64,000 bases of DNA from contig JAEPQH010000007.1 of assembly GCA_017640605.1 (NCBI GenBank), positions 62,001 through 126,000 on the forward strand, given 5' to 3'. The notes under the pieces are model-generated. The model was not told where the DNA came from. It made no database searches and saw only the letters and a list, made by a program, of their open reading frames with translations. This document shows positions 34,343-61,288 of the stretch, piece by piece (position 1 is the first letter of the stretch; each line of letters begins with the position of its first letter). Both the position numbers and the translations under genes were made by a program. The stretch comes from Balneolaceae bacterium. Lineage in GTDB: Bacteria; Bacteroidota; Rhodothermia; Balneolales; Balneolaceae.

Positions 34343-35071
34343 ATGATAAGGACGATATTTAGTATTTATGTATGGTTGTATTATTCCATACTATTTCTGG
34401 TGTTTTTCATTCTTATATCAATTGTATTTGTGCTTACCCTACCTTTTGATCAGTACAATAGAATCACAAACCGGATGCTGGCATTTATGGCTTGGCTGAT
34501 GATGCGTCCGACCCCATCATGGCGTATTGATATAGAAGGAGAGGAAAAGTACGATGCTTCGAAGCCAACTATATTTATTGCGAATCATCAAAGTTTCATG
34601 GACATCCCTTTGGCATTTCAATTGAAATGGAAAATGAAATGGGTGGTAAAACATAGCATGACTTACATCCCGGTGATGGGGTGGATGGTAAAGCTAACGG
34701 GACACCTAACAATCAATCGATCAAGTAAATCGGCATTAAAAAAACTTTCGAAACTCGTTCAACCCTTAAAAGATCTGGTCCCTGTAATGATTTTTCCGGA
34801 GGGAACGAGATCTTTAGATGGAAAAGTTAAATCCTTTAAGAATGGAGCCTTTTTGCTGGCTAAAGAACATGGTTTTATTATACAGCCGATTGTAATAGAT
34901 GGTGCGTATTCTGCGTTGGCATCAGGATCCAAGCTTTTTAATACCAAGGCAAATTTCAAACTTAAAGTGTTGGATAGTATCGATCCCGATGCATTTGATT
35001 CAATGACTGCGCTACGCGATCATGCTCGGGAGGTTATTATCTCGGCGCATGAACAGCTCAAAGATTCTTGA
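34343..35071 (+). CDS. plsC: 1-acyl-sn-glycerol-3-phosphate acyltransferase
   Basis: 242 residues. A hydrophobic N-terminal helix pair (about residues 8-30 and 38-50) anchors it. The acyltransferase motifs are NHQSFMDIP (HxxxxD) and FPEGTRSLDG. It acylates lysophosphatidate at the inner membrane to make phosphatidate. It starts 6 nt after murQ. Its stop overlaps the TTG start of the next gene (TTGA), so translation is probably coupled. Confidence 0.9.
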   Translation: MIRTIFSIYVWLYYSILFLVFFILISIVFVLTLPFDQYNRITNRMLAFMAWLMMRPTPSWRIDIEGEEKYDASKPTIFIANHQSFMDIPLAFQLKWKMKWVVKHSMTYIPVMGWMVKLTGHLTINRSSKSALKKLSKLVQPLKDLVPVMIFPEGTRSLDGKVKSFKNGAFLLAKEHGFIIQPIVIDGAYSALASGSKLFNTKANFKLKVLDSIDPDAFDSMTALRDHAREVIISAHEQLKDS

Positions 35072-35748
35072 ACGAATTTAACTATCAGCAATTTTTGTCC
35101 AATGTACACTATCACCATCGCGTGATGGGAGCGTTGATAGTTTCTTTGTTATTATTGATTGCCGTTTTCAAATTATGGCCCGAACAAGAGCGAAAAGTCA
35201 ACGTTTTTATTTTTCCTGAGGATGAAGTGCTTTTTGTAGAAGAAATGGTAATCACAAAACAAGCCAATGCACCTGCATCGCCGCCCAGACCTCAAGTTCC
35301 TATACCTGTTCCAAACGACGTTGTGATCGAAGAAGAAATTGAATTTCCAGAATTTGATACAATGATTTCTCTCGATTCGCTTAGTATAGCCGAAACAACC
35401 GGACAGACAGGAAATGAAAACAGAATTTCCGGTAACCCGGATCGTCCACCCAGAATTTCCCGAATTGTTGAGCCAACACTATCTGAAGAAGCTACCAATT
35501 CGGAGTTAAAAAGCATGATTTTGGTGAATTTTACGGTGAATAGTAATGGTACTGTTCGGGAAGCCTACATTGCCGAAATTCGAAAATATAAAGGAAACTC
35601 TGATGAATATGAGGTTGTGCAGGATTTAGGATTTGATATTATTCAGGATGTGTTGGAAGCAGCATATAAGTGGCGATTTCGACCCGCAACCGAAGATGGA
35701 GAAAGGGTAGGGGCTTATATCCAAGAAGCGTTTTTAATTGGCTTTTAG
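35068..35748 (+). CDS. TonB-family energy transducer protein
   Basis: 226 residues with a TTG start overlapping the plsC stop. One N-terminal membrane helix (about residues 22-42) is followed by a proline-rich stretch (APASPPRPQVPIPVP). The C-terminal domain shows the TonB pattern VNFTVNSNGTVREAYIAEI, ending with a run like AAYKWRFRPA. It would span the periplasm and link an ExbBD-type motor to outer-membrane transporters. No receptor or ExbB/ExbD gene lies next to it, so the partner is unknown. Confidence 0.85.
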   Translation: MNEFNYQQFLSNVHYHHRVMGALIVSLLLLIAVFKLWPEQERKVNVFIFPEDEVLFVEEMVITKQANAPASPPRPQVPIPVPNDVVIEEEIEFPEFDTMISLDSLSIAETTGQTGNENRISGNPDRPPRISRIVEPTLSEEATNSELKSMILVNFTVNSNGTVREAYIAEIRKYKGNSDEYEVVQDLGFDIIQDVLEAAYKWRFRPATEDGERVGAYIQEAFLIGF

Positions 35749-35750
35749 CA

Positions 35751-35781
35751 TTGCTATGAGGTGCAATTAGTTCTATCTTTG
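35751..35781 (+). promoter_or_regulatory. Bacteroidota-type promoter of the tRNA-Ser gene
   Basis: TTG at 35751-35753 and TATCTTTG at 35774-35781 are 20 nt apart. This matches the Bacteroidota sigma form (TTG at about -33 and TAnnTTTG at about -7). The first tRNA base follows 15 nt later, a sensible distance for a short leader. Confidence 0.7.
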
Positions 35782-35796
35782 CGCCCCTGTAAAATA

Positions 35797-35885
35797 GGAG
35801 AGGTGCCAGAGCGGTCGAATGGGCTCGCCTGGAAAGCGAGTGTGCCGCCAACGCGGTACCGAGGGTTCGAATCCCTCCCTCTCCG
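35797..35885 (+). tRNA. tRNA-Ser (anticodon GGA)
   Basis: The acceptor stem GGAGAGG pairs with CCTCTCC. The anticodon stem CTCGC/GCGAG encloses the loop CTGGAAA with anticodon GGA at 35831-35833. A long variable arm lies between the anticodon and T arms, and the T arm is GAGGG-TTCGAAT-CCCTC. The long variable arm and GGA anticodon make this serine, reading UCC/UCU codons. The 3' CCA is not encoded (GCA follows). Sequences like its 3' half recur downstream. Confidence 0.97.
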
Positions 35886-35897
35886 CATTTAAAAATG

Positions 35898-35930
35898 AAA
35901 GTCTTCTGCTGAAAAGTGGAAGACTTTTTT
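35898..35930 (+). terminator. Terminator of the tRNA-Ser gene
   Basis: A 9-bp stem (AAAGTCTTC / GAAGACTTT) with a 12-nt loop ends in a run of six T. It starts 13 nt after the tRNA. Copies of this hairpin, variably preserved, appear again near 36260, 36500 and 36825. Confidence 0.85.
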
Positions 35931-35940
35931 ATTTTTAGTG

Positions 35941-36186
35941 ATGGAGTATTTCGCATACATATTGAAAAGTGATTACGACGGTAGTTATTACTACGGAAGC
36001 GGCCAGGATGTATTAAAGCGGATTAAGCAACACAATCGAGGTAAATCAAGGTATACAAAAGGCAAGAGACCGTGGAAATTTCACTATAGTGAAGAATATC
36101 CTACTCGCGCTGAAGCAATGGCGAGGGAGCGATTCTTTAAAACCATTGATGGATATAATTACCTCAAAGGGAAAGGAATCATATAA
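35941..36186 (+). CDS. Small GIY-YIG nuclease-domain protein
   Basis: 81 residues from the ATG at 35941; a GTG immediately upstream gives no better start. It has the UvrC/GIY-YIG-type layout, with the motif degenerate to AYILKS and YYYGSGQ, followed by LKRIKQHNRG and the metal-site Glu in RERFFK. These stand-alone domain proteins are common but have no agreed function. It lies immediately after the tRNA-Ser terminator. A copy of the tRNA tail follows it, so the gene seems to have been inserted or duplicated with that tail. Confidence 0.82.
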   Translation: MEYFAYILKSDYDGSYYYGSGQDVLKRIKQHNRGKSRYTKGKRPWKFHYSEEYPTRAEAMARERFFKTIDGYNYLKGKGII

Positions 36187-36190
36187 ACAA

Positions 36191-36294
36191 ACGCAGTACC
36201 GAGGGTTCTGCCATTGACATCCCTATGGGAGAATCCCTCCCTCTCCGCATTTAAAAATGAAAGTTTTCTGCTGAAAAGTGGAGGACTTTTTTTT
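36191..36294 (+). repeat. Copy of tRNA-Ser 3' end plus terminator (copy 2)
   Basis: The sequence matches 35851-35930 almost base for base: the end of the variable arm, GAGGGTTC, then AATCCCTCCCTCTCCGCA, the spacer ATTTAAAAATGAAAG and the terminator hairpin. About 23 nt containing CCATTGACATCCCTATGGG are inserted at the T loop. It cannot be a functional tRNA, since the 5' half is missing. Confidence 0.85.
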
Positions 36295-36296
36295 GG

Positions 36297-36676
36297 GATC
36301 AGTTATTCGATCCAACGCAGAGCATTGGATCGAGTGATAAATGAGTGAATGTATTATTCACATAATCGTCCTATTTCAAAGTCATTCCTGCGAAGGCAGG
36401 AATCTATAGCTTTGATAGTGATTGAAGCTAAACACAGCACTGAGAGTTCTGCAGAATTCACCCTTATGGGAGAAACCCACCCTTTCTACCATATTTCGAA
36501 AATCTTATGTTTACAAGCGGAAGACTTTTTCATTTTATGGCATTGGTTATTCGACCCAACGTAAAGCATTGGTTCGAATAATAAATGAATGGATTAATTA
36601 TTCACATAATCGTCCAACTACAAGGTCATTCCTGCGAAGGCAGGAATCTATAGCTTTGATTGTGACCGTAGCTTAA
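36297..36676 (+). repeat. Tandem degenerate repeat with palindromic VIPAKAGIQ-type hairpins
   Basis: Two units, about 36297-36430 and 36539-36676, share ...GTTATTCGA(T/C)CCAACG(C/T)A, ATTCACATAATCGTCC and GTCATTCCTGCGAAGGCAGG. Each holds the 8-bp palindrome ATTCCTGC-GAAG-GCAGGAAT (36384-36403 and 36628-36647). Between the units lies a decayed third copy of the tRNA-Ser tail and terminator (about 36431-36532: GAGAGTTCTGC, CCTTATGGGAGAA, GAAGACTTTTT). A third, partial unit starts near 36859. No gene is supported in this block; open frames in it are read through repeats. Confidence 0.75.
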
Positions 36677-36756
36677 TTCACAGTCCAATTGTTTTAGAAT
36701 TCCACTTTTAATGCCTTCCAATAAGCTCTGCACTGAGTATTTCACTAGGAAGCAGA

Positions 36757-36910
36757 CAGTGAAATTTACACTATACTGAAGGCATCCCCATGGGAGAATC
36801 CGTCTCTCTCCGCATTAAAAATGAAAGGCTTCTTCTTAGAAGTAAAAGTCATTTTTTGTAATTGGTTATTCGATCCAACGCAGAGCATTGGATCGAGTGA
36901 TAAAACTCGT
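36757..36910 (+). pseudogene. Remnant of a GIY-YIG gene joined to a fourth tRNA-tail copy
   Basis: About 36 bases from 36757 (AGACAGTGAAATTTACACTA and on to CATCC) match the middle of the GIY-YIG gene at 36069-36104 (AGACCGTGGAAATTTCACTA and on), with a stop codon in frame. It is followed by GGGAGAATCCGTCTCTCTCCGCATTAAAAATG, split here in reading as the tRNA tail, the terminator relic, and one more start of the tandem unit (36859-36910). Confidence 0.55.
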
Positions 36911-36978
36911 TACATACCCGTTTAGTCAAAAAAGGAAATTTTAACGCGATACTATTCATTGCTACTAATTCTAAATAT

Positions 36979-37006
36979 CCTTTGTCCTTTGTCCTTTGTC
37001 CTTTGT
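36979..37006 (+). repeat. Heptamer tandem repeat (CCTTTGT)x4
   Basis: Four exact copies of CCTTTGT stand in the 350-nt stretch between the tRNA-tail repeats and the next gene. Nothing else is recognised in 36911-37258 besides A+T-rich leader sequence. Seven-base units change frame with every copy, so this is not coding. Confidence 0.9.
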
Positions 37007-37258
37007 CCCTCAGTGCCTCTGATCCTTCTCCAGAATTTATCAATCAAGGAACTTTTTAACCCTTCAATATTATATAGTTGTCAATTCAATAATCTATGGT
37101 AGAATTTTGGCATATTATTTCTACTTTTAGTCAATGAAACATTATGTTGGTTTTAATCAAGTTCAGGGGTACACCAATTCCAAAAAAATGTGGATGGGTA
37201 CTTCTCAAAATGGTTCGGCCATATTTTCAAATCTACAATATCAATAAACCTATAACAG

Positions 37259-39580
37259 ATGCGTAATTTTAAGCTGTTACTAGTCGGGGTTTTTTCCACC
37301 GTTTTGATTTCCAATTGCGATATCAGTACGCCCGGAAAGCCTGACTTTACTACATCTCATAGCGTTGAAGCACCACTATTGCTCAATAAAACGCTGCAAT
37401 TTTTAGGTGGAGGAGAGGGAGCGCCCGAAGCTTTACTCGACACTACCAAAAGCGATTTTGATTCACTTTTCACTGTTACAGATGGTGGAATTGATGACGG
37501 ATTAATTACACTTTCACGAACCGAAGAATTCGATTTTGGCGACTTAAACGACGCTATCCCTGAAATTGGGATCGATCCAACATCGTTTAATTCTCAGGTT
37601 GGTGAAATTGAAATCGGAAGTTTCTCTAGTGGCAATGGCGACCTTGGTTCTGTAGATATTGAGGAAGTTACCGGAAGCGACCCAAATATTGTACCAGCAG
37701 GAACGCCAATTCCGGCCGGTGATAACTCCGCGAATCCTGTTCAAATTAATATTGGTGCCAACACCGATTTCTTTGTTAGCGCAACTATTAAACGGGGGAG
37801 CATCGATATTCAGGTTACCAACAATCTTGGGTTTAACTTTAGCGTAGCTCAGGTTCAATTTATTGATACCGTTTCTTCAACTCCAATTGGATCTGTGGCC
37901 GAATTTAGTAATGCGAATGGCAACCAGTTGATTGATGGAGCCACTGAGATTGCTTCTGTAACCTTTAGTGATGGAGATGTGCTCCAAAATCTAGGGGTTC
38001 AATTAACCATTTTCTGGAACGCATTCACCTTTCCCGCAAACCCTGGTTTACTGGCAGTAAACTCGGTAGATGGTAATGGCTTAACCGCTTCTGCGGTAGA
38101 AGCTGCTGTAACCGAGCAGGATTTCTCAACGGCCAGTGTAACTACGTTTGATGCAACCGAATTCCAGTTCACATCCGACGATCACTTTGTACAACTTGAG
38201 TCTGGCGTTATCGAATTGGGTGAAATCACTAATAGTCTAGATTTGAGCGTAGAAACGTTGATCATCTCGTTTCCGGGCATTAGATCAACGGAAAATGAAG
38301 CAGATTCTCTTCGCTTAGAATATTCAGGTGCTACTGAAATTTCTAGAAACGGTTCAGCACCGGCTAGAAATATCGATTTAGCCGGCTACTTTATCTATGC
38401 AAATGGCAATCAAATTAATTATAACATCCAGGCTATTACCGAAAATACCCAAAATGCACCGGTTGGTGATCAAACACGGGTAATCCGTGAGACGGATGAA
38501 GTTAGCTCTAGCGTAGCGATCAATAATCTTACTGTTGCTCGTGCTTTTGGTGAGATTCAATCACAAACAGTATTGTTAGGTGATGACGATCCGTCGAATG
38601 GTTTAACAACCCTAGGTAACGATATTGTTGATGCCTACAACGAAACGGAAGTTTCTCTCACCGAAATTGATGGTTTGGATGACTTATCCAGCGAAATTGA
38701 TGGAATTGAATTTGCTGGTGCAAGTTTAAGTATAACCTATACTTCTAATATTGGAGTGCCAACTACCATTTACGCTGCAATTGTTGGTGTGGATGGAGAA
38801 GGGGAAGAGATTTTCTTAACCGGTACTAACGGCTCGGATAAAGTAGTTAGTGGCACAGATCCTATCGATGGAATTTATGCAAATGGCGTTCAGCTTCGCG
38901 CAGATCAGCTTATTAAATTTCAGTTAGATCCTAGTCCCGATGGATCAGTGATAAATTCCTCAGTTATCTTTGACGGTAACAACACTAACGTACTCGACTT
39001 CTTAAACAATTTACCAAGTGAAATTCGCTTCGTGGGTAAATCAGTAATCAACCAATCAAACGGCGAAGCAACCATTGCTACTCCACTTGAGTTTGACCCT
39101 TCTATTTTAGTAGATCTTCCAATTTACTTCAGTGCCGCAAGTGCATCTTATGAAACTACCGTAGATGGTGGAGGTTTAGATGGATTACCGGAAGAGGGTG
39201 AGGATACCGACGTAACAAGTGGGGAACTAGTTATTACTTACGAAAATGGTTTGCCTCTTGGGTTTATCTTGAATTTCGATTTCTTTGAAGCAAATGGAGA
39301 TAGTGTTACGACTGTTCCAATACCTGGAGAGGATCCTATCAGACTTGCAGCAGCACCAGTTGATGCAGTTAATAGATTTGTAACTGTTGCTGAGCCCGGA
39401 CAGTTAATCATTTCTTTAAATGATAACCAACTTGATCAACTTTCTAGAACCGATTCAGTAACTATTAGTGCCACACTTGACACCTTTTCACAAGAAGCGG
39501 TGAAGATTCGAGATACCGACTCTATCACCATCAGCATCAGTGCAAAAGCAAGTGTTCGAACTAATGTAGGAGGCAACTAA
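37259..39580 (+). CDS. Large lipoprotein of unknown function
   Basis: 773 residues. A lipoprotein signal (lipobox LISNC, Cys near residue 20) is followed by DISTPGKPDF. The rest is predicted beta-rich and acidic, with no catalytic motif. An early block (LGGGEGAPEALLDTTKSDFDSLFTV) and a late block (TDSVTISATLDTFSQEAV) recall outer-membrane-associated proteins of Bacteroidota. It is followed after one base by a barrel-protein gene, so the two probably work as a pair at the outer membrane. I do not recognise the family. Confidence 0.75.
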   Translation: MRNFKLLLVGVFSTVLISNCDISTPGKPDFTTSHSVEAPLLLNKTLQFLGGGEGAPEALLDTTKSDFDSLFTVTDGGIDDGLITLSRTEEFDFGDLNDAIPEIGIDPTSFNSQVGEIEIGSFSSGNGDLGSVDIEEVTGSDPNIVPAGTPIPAGDNSANPVQINIGANTDFFVSATIKRGSIDIQVTNNLGFNFSVAQVQFIDTVSSTPIGSVAEFSNANGNQLIDGATEIASVTFSDGDVLQNLGVQLTIFWNAFTFPANPGLLAVNSVDGNGLTASAVEAAVTEQDFSTASVTTFDATEFQFTSDDHFVQLESGVIELGEITNSLDLSVETLIISFPGIRSTENEADSLRLEYSGATEISRNGSAPARNIDLAGYFIYANGNQINYNIQAITENTQNAPVGDQTRVIRETDEVSSSVAINNLTVARAFGEIQSQTVLLGDDDPSNGLTTLGNDIVDAYNETEVSLTEIDGLDDLSSEIDGIEFAGASLSITYTSNIGVPTTIYAAIVGVDGEGEEIFLTGTNGSDKVVSGTDPIDGIYANGVQLRADQLIKFQLDPSPDGSVINSSVIFDGNNTNVLDFLNNLPSEIRFVGKSVINQSNGEATIATPLEFDPSILVDLPIYFSAASASYETTVDGGGLDGLPEEGEDTDVTSGELVITYENGLPLGFILNFDFFEANGDSVTTVPIPGEDPIRLAAAPVDAVNRFVTVAEPGQLIISLNDNQLDQLSRTDSVTISATLDTFSQEAVKIRDTDSITISISAKASVRTNVGGN

Positions 39581-60331: not shown

Positions 60332-61288
60332 ATGAGTAAACTACTTACTAACGTTGCAAACGAAATTCGTCGACGTGATTACAGCTATCGAACCGAACAA
60401 GCCTACTTGGGTTGGATTAAACGTTTCGTGATGTTTAATAACAAAATACATCCACTTCAAATCCCAGAAAAAAAGGTGGTCGAGTTTCTGAACCATTTAG
60501 TGAATGATAAAAATGTCGCTTCATCCACCCAAAATCAGGCCCTTTGCGCCATTGCATTTCTGTATAAGCAAGTGCTCAAAAAACCACTGGGCATTTTAGA
60601 AGAGCTCACATACTCAAAGAAATATAAAACGCTCCCGGTGGTACTCACTCGAGCTGAGGTAAGGAAAATTGTTCAGCATTTGCAAGGAGCGGCAAAACTG
60701 ATGGTTCAGCTAATGTACGGCACAGGATTACGTATTTCTGAGTGCCAGCGTTTACGGGTTTTGGATGTCGATTTCGGAAACGCACTCATTCAAGTTCGCA
60801 ATGGCAAAGGCAGAAAAGACAGAATTACACTTTTGCCCAACTCTTTGGAAGAGGCGCTATCTATTCAGATTAAAAAAGTGGAACATCTACATCAAAAAGA
60901 TATGCTAAATGGCCAATCAAATGTCCCAATGCCCAAAGCTTTATCGGTAAAATACCCGAATGCAGCTAAGCAGTTGAAATGGCAATACGTTTTTCCATCC
61001 CGCAAAATTGCGACAGATCCGCGTACCGGCCAACAAGTGAGATACCATCAATCCGGGCAATGGGTAAATCGTAAAATTGCAGAGGCAGTATTAAAAGCCC
61101 GAATTCAAAAAAAAGTATCGGCGCATACCTTCCAGCATAGCTTTGCAACCCAATTATTACAAAGTGGATACGATATCCGAACTGTACAAGAGCTGCTCGG
61201 CCACAAAGACGTTCAAACCACCATGATTTACACACACGTACTCAATAAAGGCACCAATTACATCAAAAGCCCGGTGGATGTACTGTAG
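60332..61288 (+). CDS. intI: Integron integrase IntI, with Gln in place of the catalytic Arg of HxxR
   Basis: 318 residues, the usual IntI length. It begins with DYSYRTEQAYLGWIKRF, as in IntI. The tyrosine-recombinase residues are R134 (GTGLRISE), H265, H291 (LLGHKD) and Y300 (TTMIYTHV). The IntI-specific extra helix is present (MPKALSVKYPNAAKQLKW, next to YVFPSRK). At H265-T-F-Q268 the family has an Arg (HTLRH). CAG would be CGG with one G-to-A change. IntI inserts cassettes at attI using single-stranded attC. It is divergent from the cassettes, as in all integrons. The substitution probably disables catalysis, or is a sequencing error. Confidence 0.9.
   Translation: MSKLLTNVANEIRRRDYSYRTEQAYLGWIKRFVMFNNKIHPLQIPEKKVVEFLNHLVNDKNVASSTQNQALCAIAFLYKQVLKKPLGILEELTYSKKYKTLPVVLTRAEVRKIVQHLQGAAKLMVQLMYGTGLRISECQRLRVLDVDFGNALIQVRNGKGRKDRITLLPNSLEEALSIQIKKVEHLHQKDMLNGQSNVPMPKALSVKYPNAAKQLKWQYVFPSRKIATDPRTGQQVRYHQSGQWVNRKIAEAVLKARIQKKVSAHTFQHSFATQLLQSGYDIRTVQELLGHKDVQTTMIYTHVLNKGTNYIKSPVDVL

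Follow-up and report, generated by a model that had tools for sequence, protein, structure and literature searches.

The 64,000 nt stretch analysed here (the window), from a Balneolaceae bacterium, contains an intact tRNA-Ser(GGA) gene that is followed by a small GIY-YIG nuclease gene and then by several partial copies of the same tRNA, which raises the question of what kind of element could give rise to such an arrangement. A preliminary description had read it as a new type of tRNA-associated element, in which a nuclease copies itself together with its tRNA target. That interpretation as a whole is partly supported by the results presented herein, and the designation as a new type is consistent with a link that recurs in other genomes and with controls at tRNA genes that lack a GIY-YIG neighbour. 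On balance, we lean towards a small selfish gene, resembling free-standing homing endonucleases, that settles in structural RNA genes with one intact copy being kept.

The window locus and its nuclease

Annotation with ARAGORN and Rfam, together with repeat comparison, bears out that the tRNA-Ser tail and its terminator are repeated, at positions that the preliminary description had given correctly to within a few bases, and places the GIY-YIG gene between the tRNA and the first copy, as had been claimed. The features of the locus, all on the + strand, are as follows.

35797-35886, +: intact tRNA-Ser(GGA), the working copy (ARAGORN; Rfam RF00005, 57.3 bits)
35897-35928, +: intrinsic terminator separating the tRNA from the nuclease gene, 14-pair stem (terminator scan); copied behind the first displaced tail
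35938-36186, + (the strand of the tRNA): GIY-YIG nuclease gene, 82 codons, start GTG 35938 or ATG 35941 (PF01541, E=1.4e-14)
36190-36248, +: first displaced tRNA-Ser 3′ part, tRNA positions 54-90, 3 bases past the nuclease stop codon (alignment)
36209-36230, +: 22-nt insertion in the T-loop (TTC^GAA) of the first displaced tail, forming the double hairpin TGCCATTGACA/TCCCTATGGGA (alignment; covariation with 23 other inserts)
36259-36292, +: copied terminator behind the first displaced tail (repeat comparison, family D4)
36289-36432 and 36533-36676, +: two diverged 144-nt repeats after the tails, 84 % (repeat family D1)
36431-36532, +: second displaced tail, decayed, with decayed terminator (repeat families D4, D5, D6)
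36450-36471, +: decayed 22-nt insert of the second tail, same T-loop point (sequence)
36737-36781, +: nuclease-gene remnant of 45 nt ahead of the third tail (local alignment score 39, shuffled maximum 34 in 200 shuffles)
36782-36857, +: third displaced tail (tail 36796-36813); the second hairpin and the terminator survive as remnants (sequence, alignment)
35887-37054, +: segment occupied in comparison with the congener L061 (BLASTN flanks)

Over its final 62 nt, the copy at 36190-36292 shares 97 % identity with the intact tail plus terminator, and the full insert of this first tail, TGCCATTGACATCCCTATGGGA, lies between TTC and GAA of the T-loop. The downstream copies had been described as worn, which is correct for the later, decayed ones, whilst the first two harbour the 22-nt T-loop insertion and are not simply worn; in the third tail the second hairpin alone is retained. 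The 144-nt repeats behind the tails give the array a period of about 244 nt. Given the nuclease remnant ahead of the third tail, the array probably once had at least one further nuclease unit and, taken together with the inserts, this makes the locus a decaying array of units (nuclease gene, hairpin tail, terminator) behind a working tRNA. If the selfish-gene reading as a whole holds, as we are inclined to accept without great confidence, the window would contain one insertion of the element at tRNA-Ser(GGA), in which one nuclease unit is still open whilst two or more have decayed.

Several minor features accompany the array. A palindrome, GTCATTCCTGCGAAGGCAGGAATC, occurs after each worn tail (36379-36405 and 36623-36649), with its core having 3 exact matches in 344 kb of the genome, and is therefore not a common dispersed repeat. 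On the opposite strand, an ORF of 105 aa (35639-35956, GGIRTLGT...) runs across the tRNA, and is of the spurious type that tRNA-Ser genes yield in annotation. A search for an intron RNA core around the nuclease ORF, using Rfam at E≤1 on 34500-38500, returned no group I or other intron family.

With regard to the protein, PF01541 covers residues 4-68 of its 82 aa and no second domain was found; Y7, Y18, G20, R28, H32 and E64 are invariant in an alignment with ten relatives, as befits the GIY-YIG superfamily. Homing enzymes of the I-TevI kind usually, although not universally, carry a DNA-binding module beside the catalytic domain, and a domain search of the window protein reveals none. The best solved structural relatives are the UPF0213 proteins 1zg2 (E=2e-8) and 1ywl, with a weak match to the structure-specific nuclease SLX1 (4xlg). 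UPF0213 and SLX1 resemble the window protein in their single GIY-YIG domain; however, in related genomes the UPF0213-like genes at L034, L042, L052 and L056 have no adjacent tRNA, and neither they nor members of another GIY-YIG subfamily show tRNA linkage (these loci plus L058 and L059). Median pairwise dN/dS is 0.18, and is low also between most tandem copies, indicating that the protein works, or did so recently. In searches for a carrier, the window protein had no match among phage or plasmid records, and a PHROG search likewise returned none.

Linkage to RNA genes and empty sites

Within this genome, a search with the window protein identifies at least seven related GIY-YIG genes, every one beside a tRNA gene or tRNA piece: at Ser, Asn, Pro (two in tandem) and Met, plus two at the end of a contig, both accompanied by Met tails. 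A profile built from ten members gives nine places in the same genome, seven of which are covered by this statement on tRNA neighbours. Of 296 Bacteroidota genomes with a completeness of 90 % or more, 180 (61 %) contain a match to the profile. A GTDB-wide scan returned 12 relatives, eight with an adjoining intact tRNA on the same strand and the others with tRNA pieces; beyond the Bacteroidota, relatives occur in Opitutaceae (L015) and Phycisphaerae (L019), at one locus each. Linkage was assessed across 128 loci, comprising 156 distinct genes with a score of at least 45. An intact tRNA lies within 700 nt of 118 of these genes (median distance 60 nt, 14 isotypes), and all 118 share its strand, a proportion that does not amount to a P value, as the loci are best matches rather than random ones and the relatives are not independent. 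Followed into other genomes, the link between nuclease and tail proposed from the window thus recurs in scores of loci.

The range of occupied genes extends beyond what the preliminary description had envisaged, to tmRNA, RNase P RNA and a few protein genes. Some genes are at tRNA pieces within arrays (L036, L047, L134, L138), one is at tmRNA (L115) and three are at RNase P RNA (L030, L161, L166). The tmRNA locus has the GIY-YIG gene after the tmRNA (1124-1488), and a displaced tmRNA tail at approximately 1750-1810 with a hairpin insert in the T-loop. At L161 (1493-1738, − strand), L166 and L030 the gene is at the 5′ end of the RNase P RNA gene; that of L161 is enclosed by a long inverted repeat that resembles an extended P3 helix, as though the P3 loop of the RNA housed the ORF. 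Related genes inside protein genes are found at L048 (1483-1722, in a RAYT-like gene) and L148 (1502-1741, in a four-helix-bundle gene), flanked by the short inverted repeats TCCTGTTAAAT/ATTTAACAGGA and CCCCGTCAAATA/TATTTGACGGGG, respectively.

Sites without the nuclease gene provide the controls. Amongst 23 relatives with tRNA-Ser(GGA) beside the same TonB-like gene, none has a GIY-YIG gene and one (L067) has a vestigial tail. The empty-site tRNA of the congener L061 is identical to that of the window (90/90 nt), and BLASTN aligns the flanks of the two at 78 %, as far as 35886 on one side and from 37055 onwards on the other, with 353 unrelated bases in L061 where the window has 1168. Occupied and empty alleles of one conserved site therefore exist, in a comparison between species. 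In the window's own genome, partial copies are present at 4/4 tRNAs with a GIY-YIG gene versus 2/27 without. One of these two exceptions, L196, has a 5′ part of tRNA-Leu(UAA) with a D-loop hairpin (1411-1468) directly upstream of the intact gene and no recognisable GIY-YIG gene nearby, and may be a derelict unit. Tail copies that stand apart from any GIY-YIG gene, the case that the preliminary description had set against itself, are accordingly rare, both at syntenic sites and within the genome. An artefact of assembly, its other misgiving, is unlikely and was discarded, since the same arrays are found in single-contig genomes, such as G316, with five units at 315-nt spacing (L134).

These controls bear on the plainest account of the locus, namely tandem duplication of tRNA genes followed by decay, with GIY-YIG genes nearby by chance. 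It is true that tRNA genes can duplicate in tandem; however, such duplication is at odds with the strand shared in 118/118 cases, with copies at 83/90 tRNA-linked loci versus 1/23 syntenic GIY-free ones, and with the strict polarity of the copies and the hairpins within most of them. Chance neighbourhood and plain tandem duplication are ruled out by the GIY-free controls (1/23; 2/27 versus 4/4), and we give this account practically no credence.

Displaced tRNA pieces and their hairpins

Partial copies, defined as at least 20 nt of the neighbouring tRNA, total 143 at the 83 loci that have them, with seven of the 90 tRNA-linked loci having none. Their placement is strictly polar, with 51 5′ parts and no 3′ parts upstream, and 66 3′ parts and a single 5′ part downstream (Fisher 6e-33); counted by locus, the ratios are 38:0 and 50:1, respectively. 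Such polarity is expected if the intact tRNA and the nuclease gene sit within an older, interrupted tRNA gene. The cleanest split is that of L020, which consists of a 5′ part (1-43), the intact tRNA, the nuclease gene and a 3′ part (43-88). A break at one exact point holds there (43/43) but is not general, as the upstream and downstream parts of other loci often overlap by 20-50 tRNA positions.

Displaced tRNA tails are also typical of integration, and one might envisage remnants of an integrase-borne island whose attachment sites are tRNA 3′ ends, with the GIY-YIG gene a passenger. Two loci have a layout of this kind: at L036 (in tandem) and L047, GIY-YIG genes lie behind a detached tRNA-Asp 3′ half with intact tRNA-Asp absent nearby, as if an integrated island had parted the two halves. 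The upstream 5′ parts are, however, nearly as frequent as the downstream 3′ parts, the pieces contain hairpins, and array intervals are of a few hundred bases. Moreover, the ORF list has no integrase beside the window locus, which sets it apart from tRNA-targeted integrative elements. The earlier claim that no integrase is present is true near the locus but not of the window in its entirety, as the nearest PF00589 gene, a recombinase of the phage-integrase family (60641-61243) that is possibly XerC/D, lies within it some 24 kb away. Integrase-driven duplication of the tail is ruled out by the want of a linked integrase together with the 5′ parts upstream, and island remnants are, in our estimation, very unlikely.

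An insertion is present in 121 of the 143 partial copies and missing from 22, and 108 copies contain a hairpin with a stem of at least 4. For inserts of 14-30 nt, stems of at least 6 occur in 50 %, versus 0.9 % of shuffled inserts. Pure 22-nt insertions number 27, and are mostly two consecutive 11-nt hairpins. Insert sites are distributed over the T-arm (40), anticodon arm (35), D-arm (23), variable region (3) and acceptor (1). Pairing covaries across 24 double hairpins (93 % paired, 21 double-change cells, 0/500 shuffles), a set that consists of 23 of the 27 pure inserts and that of L017, and from which two decayed L011 copies and the non-double-hairpin inserts of L049 and L135 were left out, an omission that favours structure. 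In other tRNAs a single hairpin replaces part of an arm, for example CGAGTTCG to TCCCGACTAGTCGGGA in tRNA-Asp (L134), and most tRNA-Met loci have a TCCGCC...GGCGGA hairpin at the same place.

It is from these hairpins that the nearest rival to a selfish, homing-like gene arises: mini-transposition of the RAYT/REP type, in which a structure-specific GIY-YIG enzyme would act on single-stranded-DNA hairpins, both its own and tRNA stem–loops, and insert into loops. The positions of 98/102 inserts in the T, anticodon or D arm, and the maintenance of pairing by double changes, are in keeping with this, as is the gene itself lying inside an inverted repeat at L161/L166 (RNase P) and L048/L148; kinship to UPF0213, and weakly to SLX1, similarly hints at a structure-specific nuclease. 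REPs are dispersed, however, whereas the double hairpins are not, with 12 in 344 kb of this genome versus 7-9 in shuffles, and none resembling those of the tRNAs. The 344 kb scan of this genome thus gives no support to the idea that the hairpins stem from a dispersed repeat, and mini-transposition strikes us as possible, but rather doubtful.

Proposed mechanism, known systems and history

We favour the selfish gene on the strength of the tRNA linkage and shared strand, the polarity of the copies, their covarying hairpins, the tandem arrays, the empty sites, the purifying selection and the agreement between nuclease tree and RNA target. Its unit would comprise the nuclease gene and a piece of the host RNA gene, usually hairpin-bearing. 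We infer that the nuclease could break a tRNA gene, and that repair would then install the nuclease gene whilst one intact tRNA is kept, conferring mobility; what remains of the older gene would be its 5′ part, upstream, or its 3′ part, downstream, which is the anatomy observed. The repeated tails and terminators may subsequently allow the unit to amplify into the tandem arrays that are seen. The hairpin would be part of the element, either as a structure recognised by the nuclease or as a shield of its own copy from cleavage or loss. As the intact neighbouring tRNA is the same as an uninvaded one, the nuclease could not attack it without attacking its own host, and the true target must therefore be narrower, or another structure. 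Speaking against the selfish gene are the catalytic domain standing alone (82 aa), the frequent overlap of parts, the copies without insertion (22/143) and loci without copies (7/90), and the want of a phage or plasmid carrier amongst the records searched.

Two further explanations assign the tRNA pieces a role. The hairpin-bearing piece might be co-transcribed with the nuclease as its RNA partner, in which case the tRNA stretch would direct the GIY-YIG protein towards the tRNA gene, whilst the protein would bind the covarying hairpin as a handle; this would be an RNA-guided GIY-YIG nuclease with guides made from tRNA, although we attach little probability to it. Alternatively, nuclease and modified tRNA pieces could form a module of benefit to the host, serving tRNA maintenance or a defence directed, for instance, at phage tRNA genes. 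Purifying selection and presence in 61 % of the sampled Bacteroidota genomes are compatible with such a benefit, and tRNA-linked GIY-YIG enzymes do count in phage–host conflict, as in the case of SegB (PMC13096335). Conversely, occurrence is patchy at any single site, units decay and form tandem arrays, PADLOC defence models give no convincing match (best E=0.0019, over 26 residues), and purifying selection is also seen in selfish genes whilst they are mobile, making a host-beneficial module quite improbable.

Amongst known systems, SegB of phages T4/T6 is a homing endonuclease of the GIY-YIG family, free-standing and associated with the tRNA region, which drives tandem amplification of the tRNA-nuclease segment via breaks and homologous recombination (PMC2988022, PMC13096335). 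It shares with the present element a GIY-YIG gene beside tRNAs of many isotypes, tandem amplification and, for the present element putatively, spread between lineages. SegB is, however, found in phage and the present element in a chromosome, with tblastn of the window protein against 50,697 phage records giving no match at E 1e-5, and neither hairpin tRNA pieces nor 5′/3′ polarity are reported for SegB in the consulted parts of the two papers. In fungal mitochondria, mobile ORFs bring a replacement gene end (Allomyces atp6; Glomus atp6/atp9/cox2/nad3), such that an endonuclease ORF (GIY-YIG in atp9) within a gene supplies a working end and pushes the native one downstream, much as here; theirs are protein genes, mostly with LAGLIDADG enzymes, and the displaced end has no hairpin described in the available sections (PMC3630166). 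Fungal and sponge mitochondria also have double hairpins, or repetitive hairpin-forming elements, inserted in genes, including rRNA; these resemble the present inserts in being short and within genes but, per the available text, are dispersed and have no linked nuclease (PMC2800124), whereas here they are tied to tRNA pieces that lie beside a GIY-YIG gene.

The element is like a blend of SegB, the mitochondrial ORFs and the mitochondrial double hairpins, yet it matches none of them, given its lack of phage or plasmid sequence matches, its bacterial chromosomal setting, and a minimal nuclease joined to hairpin-bearing RNA-gene pieces. The hairpins are the part for which no precedent was found. 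A 2006 survey of the GIY-YIG superfamily mentions tRNA solely via a methyltransferase fusion (PMC1564403), and the open-licence literature searched yielded no account of bacterial chromosomes with tRNA-linked GIY-YIG elements. The element has the appearance of a so far undescribed type of selfish gene, one that takes up residence in tRNA genes but spares them. If this is right, well over half of Bacteroidota genomes would harbour such a gene, one that colonises highly constrained genes (tRNA, tmRNA, RNase P RNA) without killing the host, and that forms a bacterial parallel to phage SegB and the end-replacing mitochondrial ORFs. It would also account for many of the small genes annotated 'GIY-YIG nuclease family', and for odd tRNA fragments, in Bacteroidota.

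As to history, the nearest GIY-YIG proteins belong to other groups, with the best match, from Draconibacterium (68 %), likewise at tRNA-Ser(GGA). Of 131 cases compared in a tree of 141 domains, 97 have the same RNA target as their closest counterpart at a different locus, versus 19 when shuffled, an agreement for which vertical inheritance at a single locus could be partly responsible. This agreement, the empty sites and the Draconibacterium match jointly suggest, from sequence comparison, lineages that are specialised on one tRNA and move between hosts, with vertical inheritance and loss a possible alternative to transfer. Should such specialisation hold, a minimal nuclease of 80 residues would have a choice of target that follows tRNA identity.
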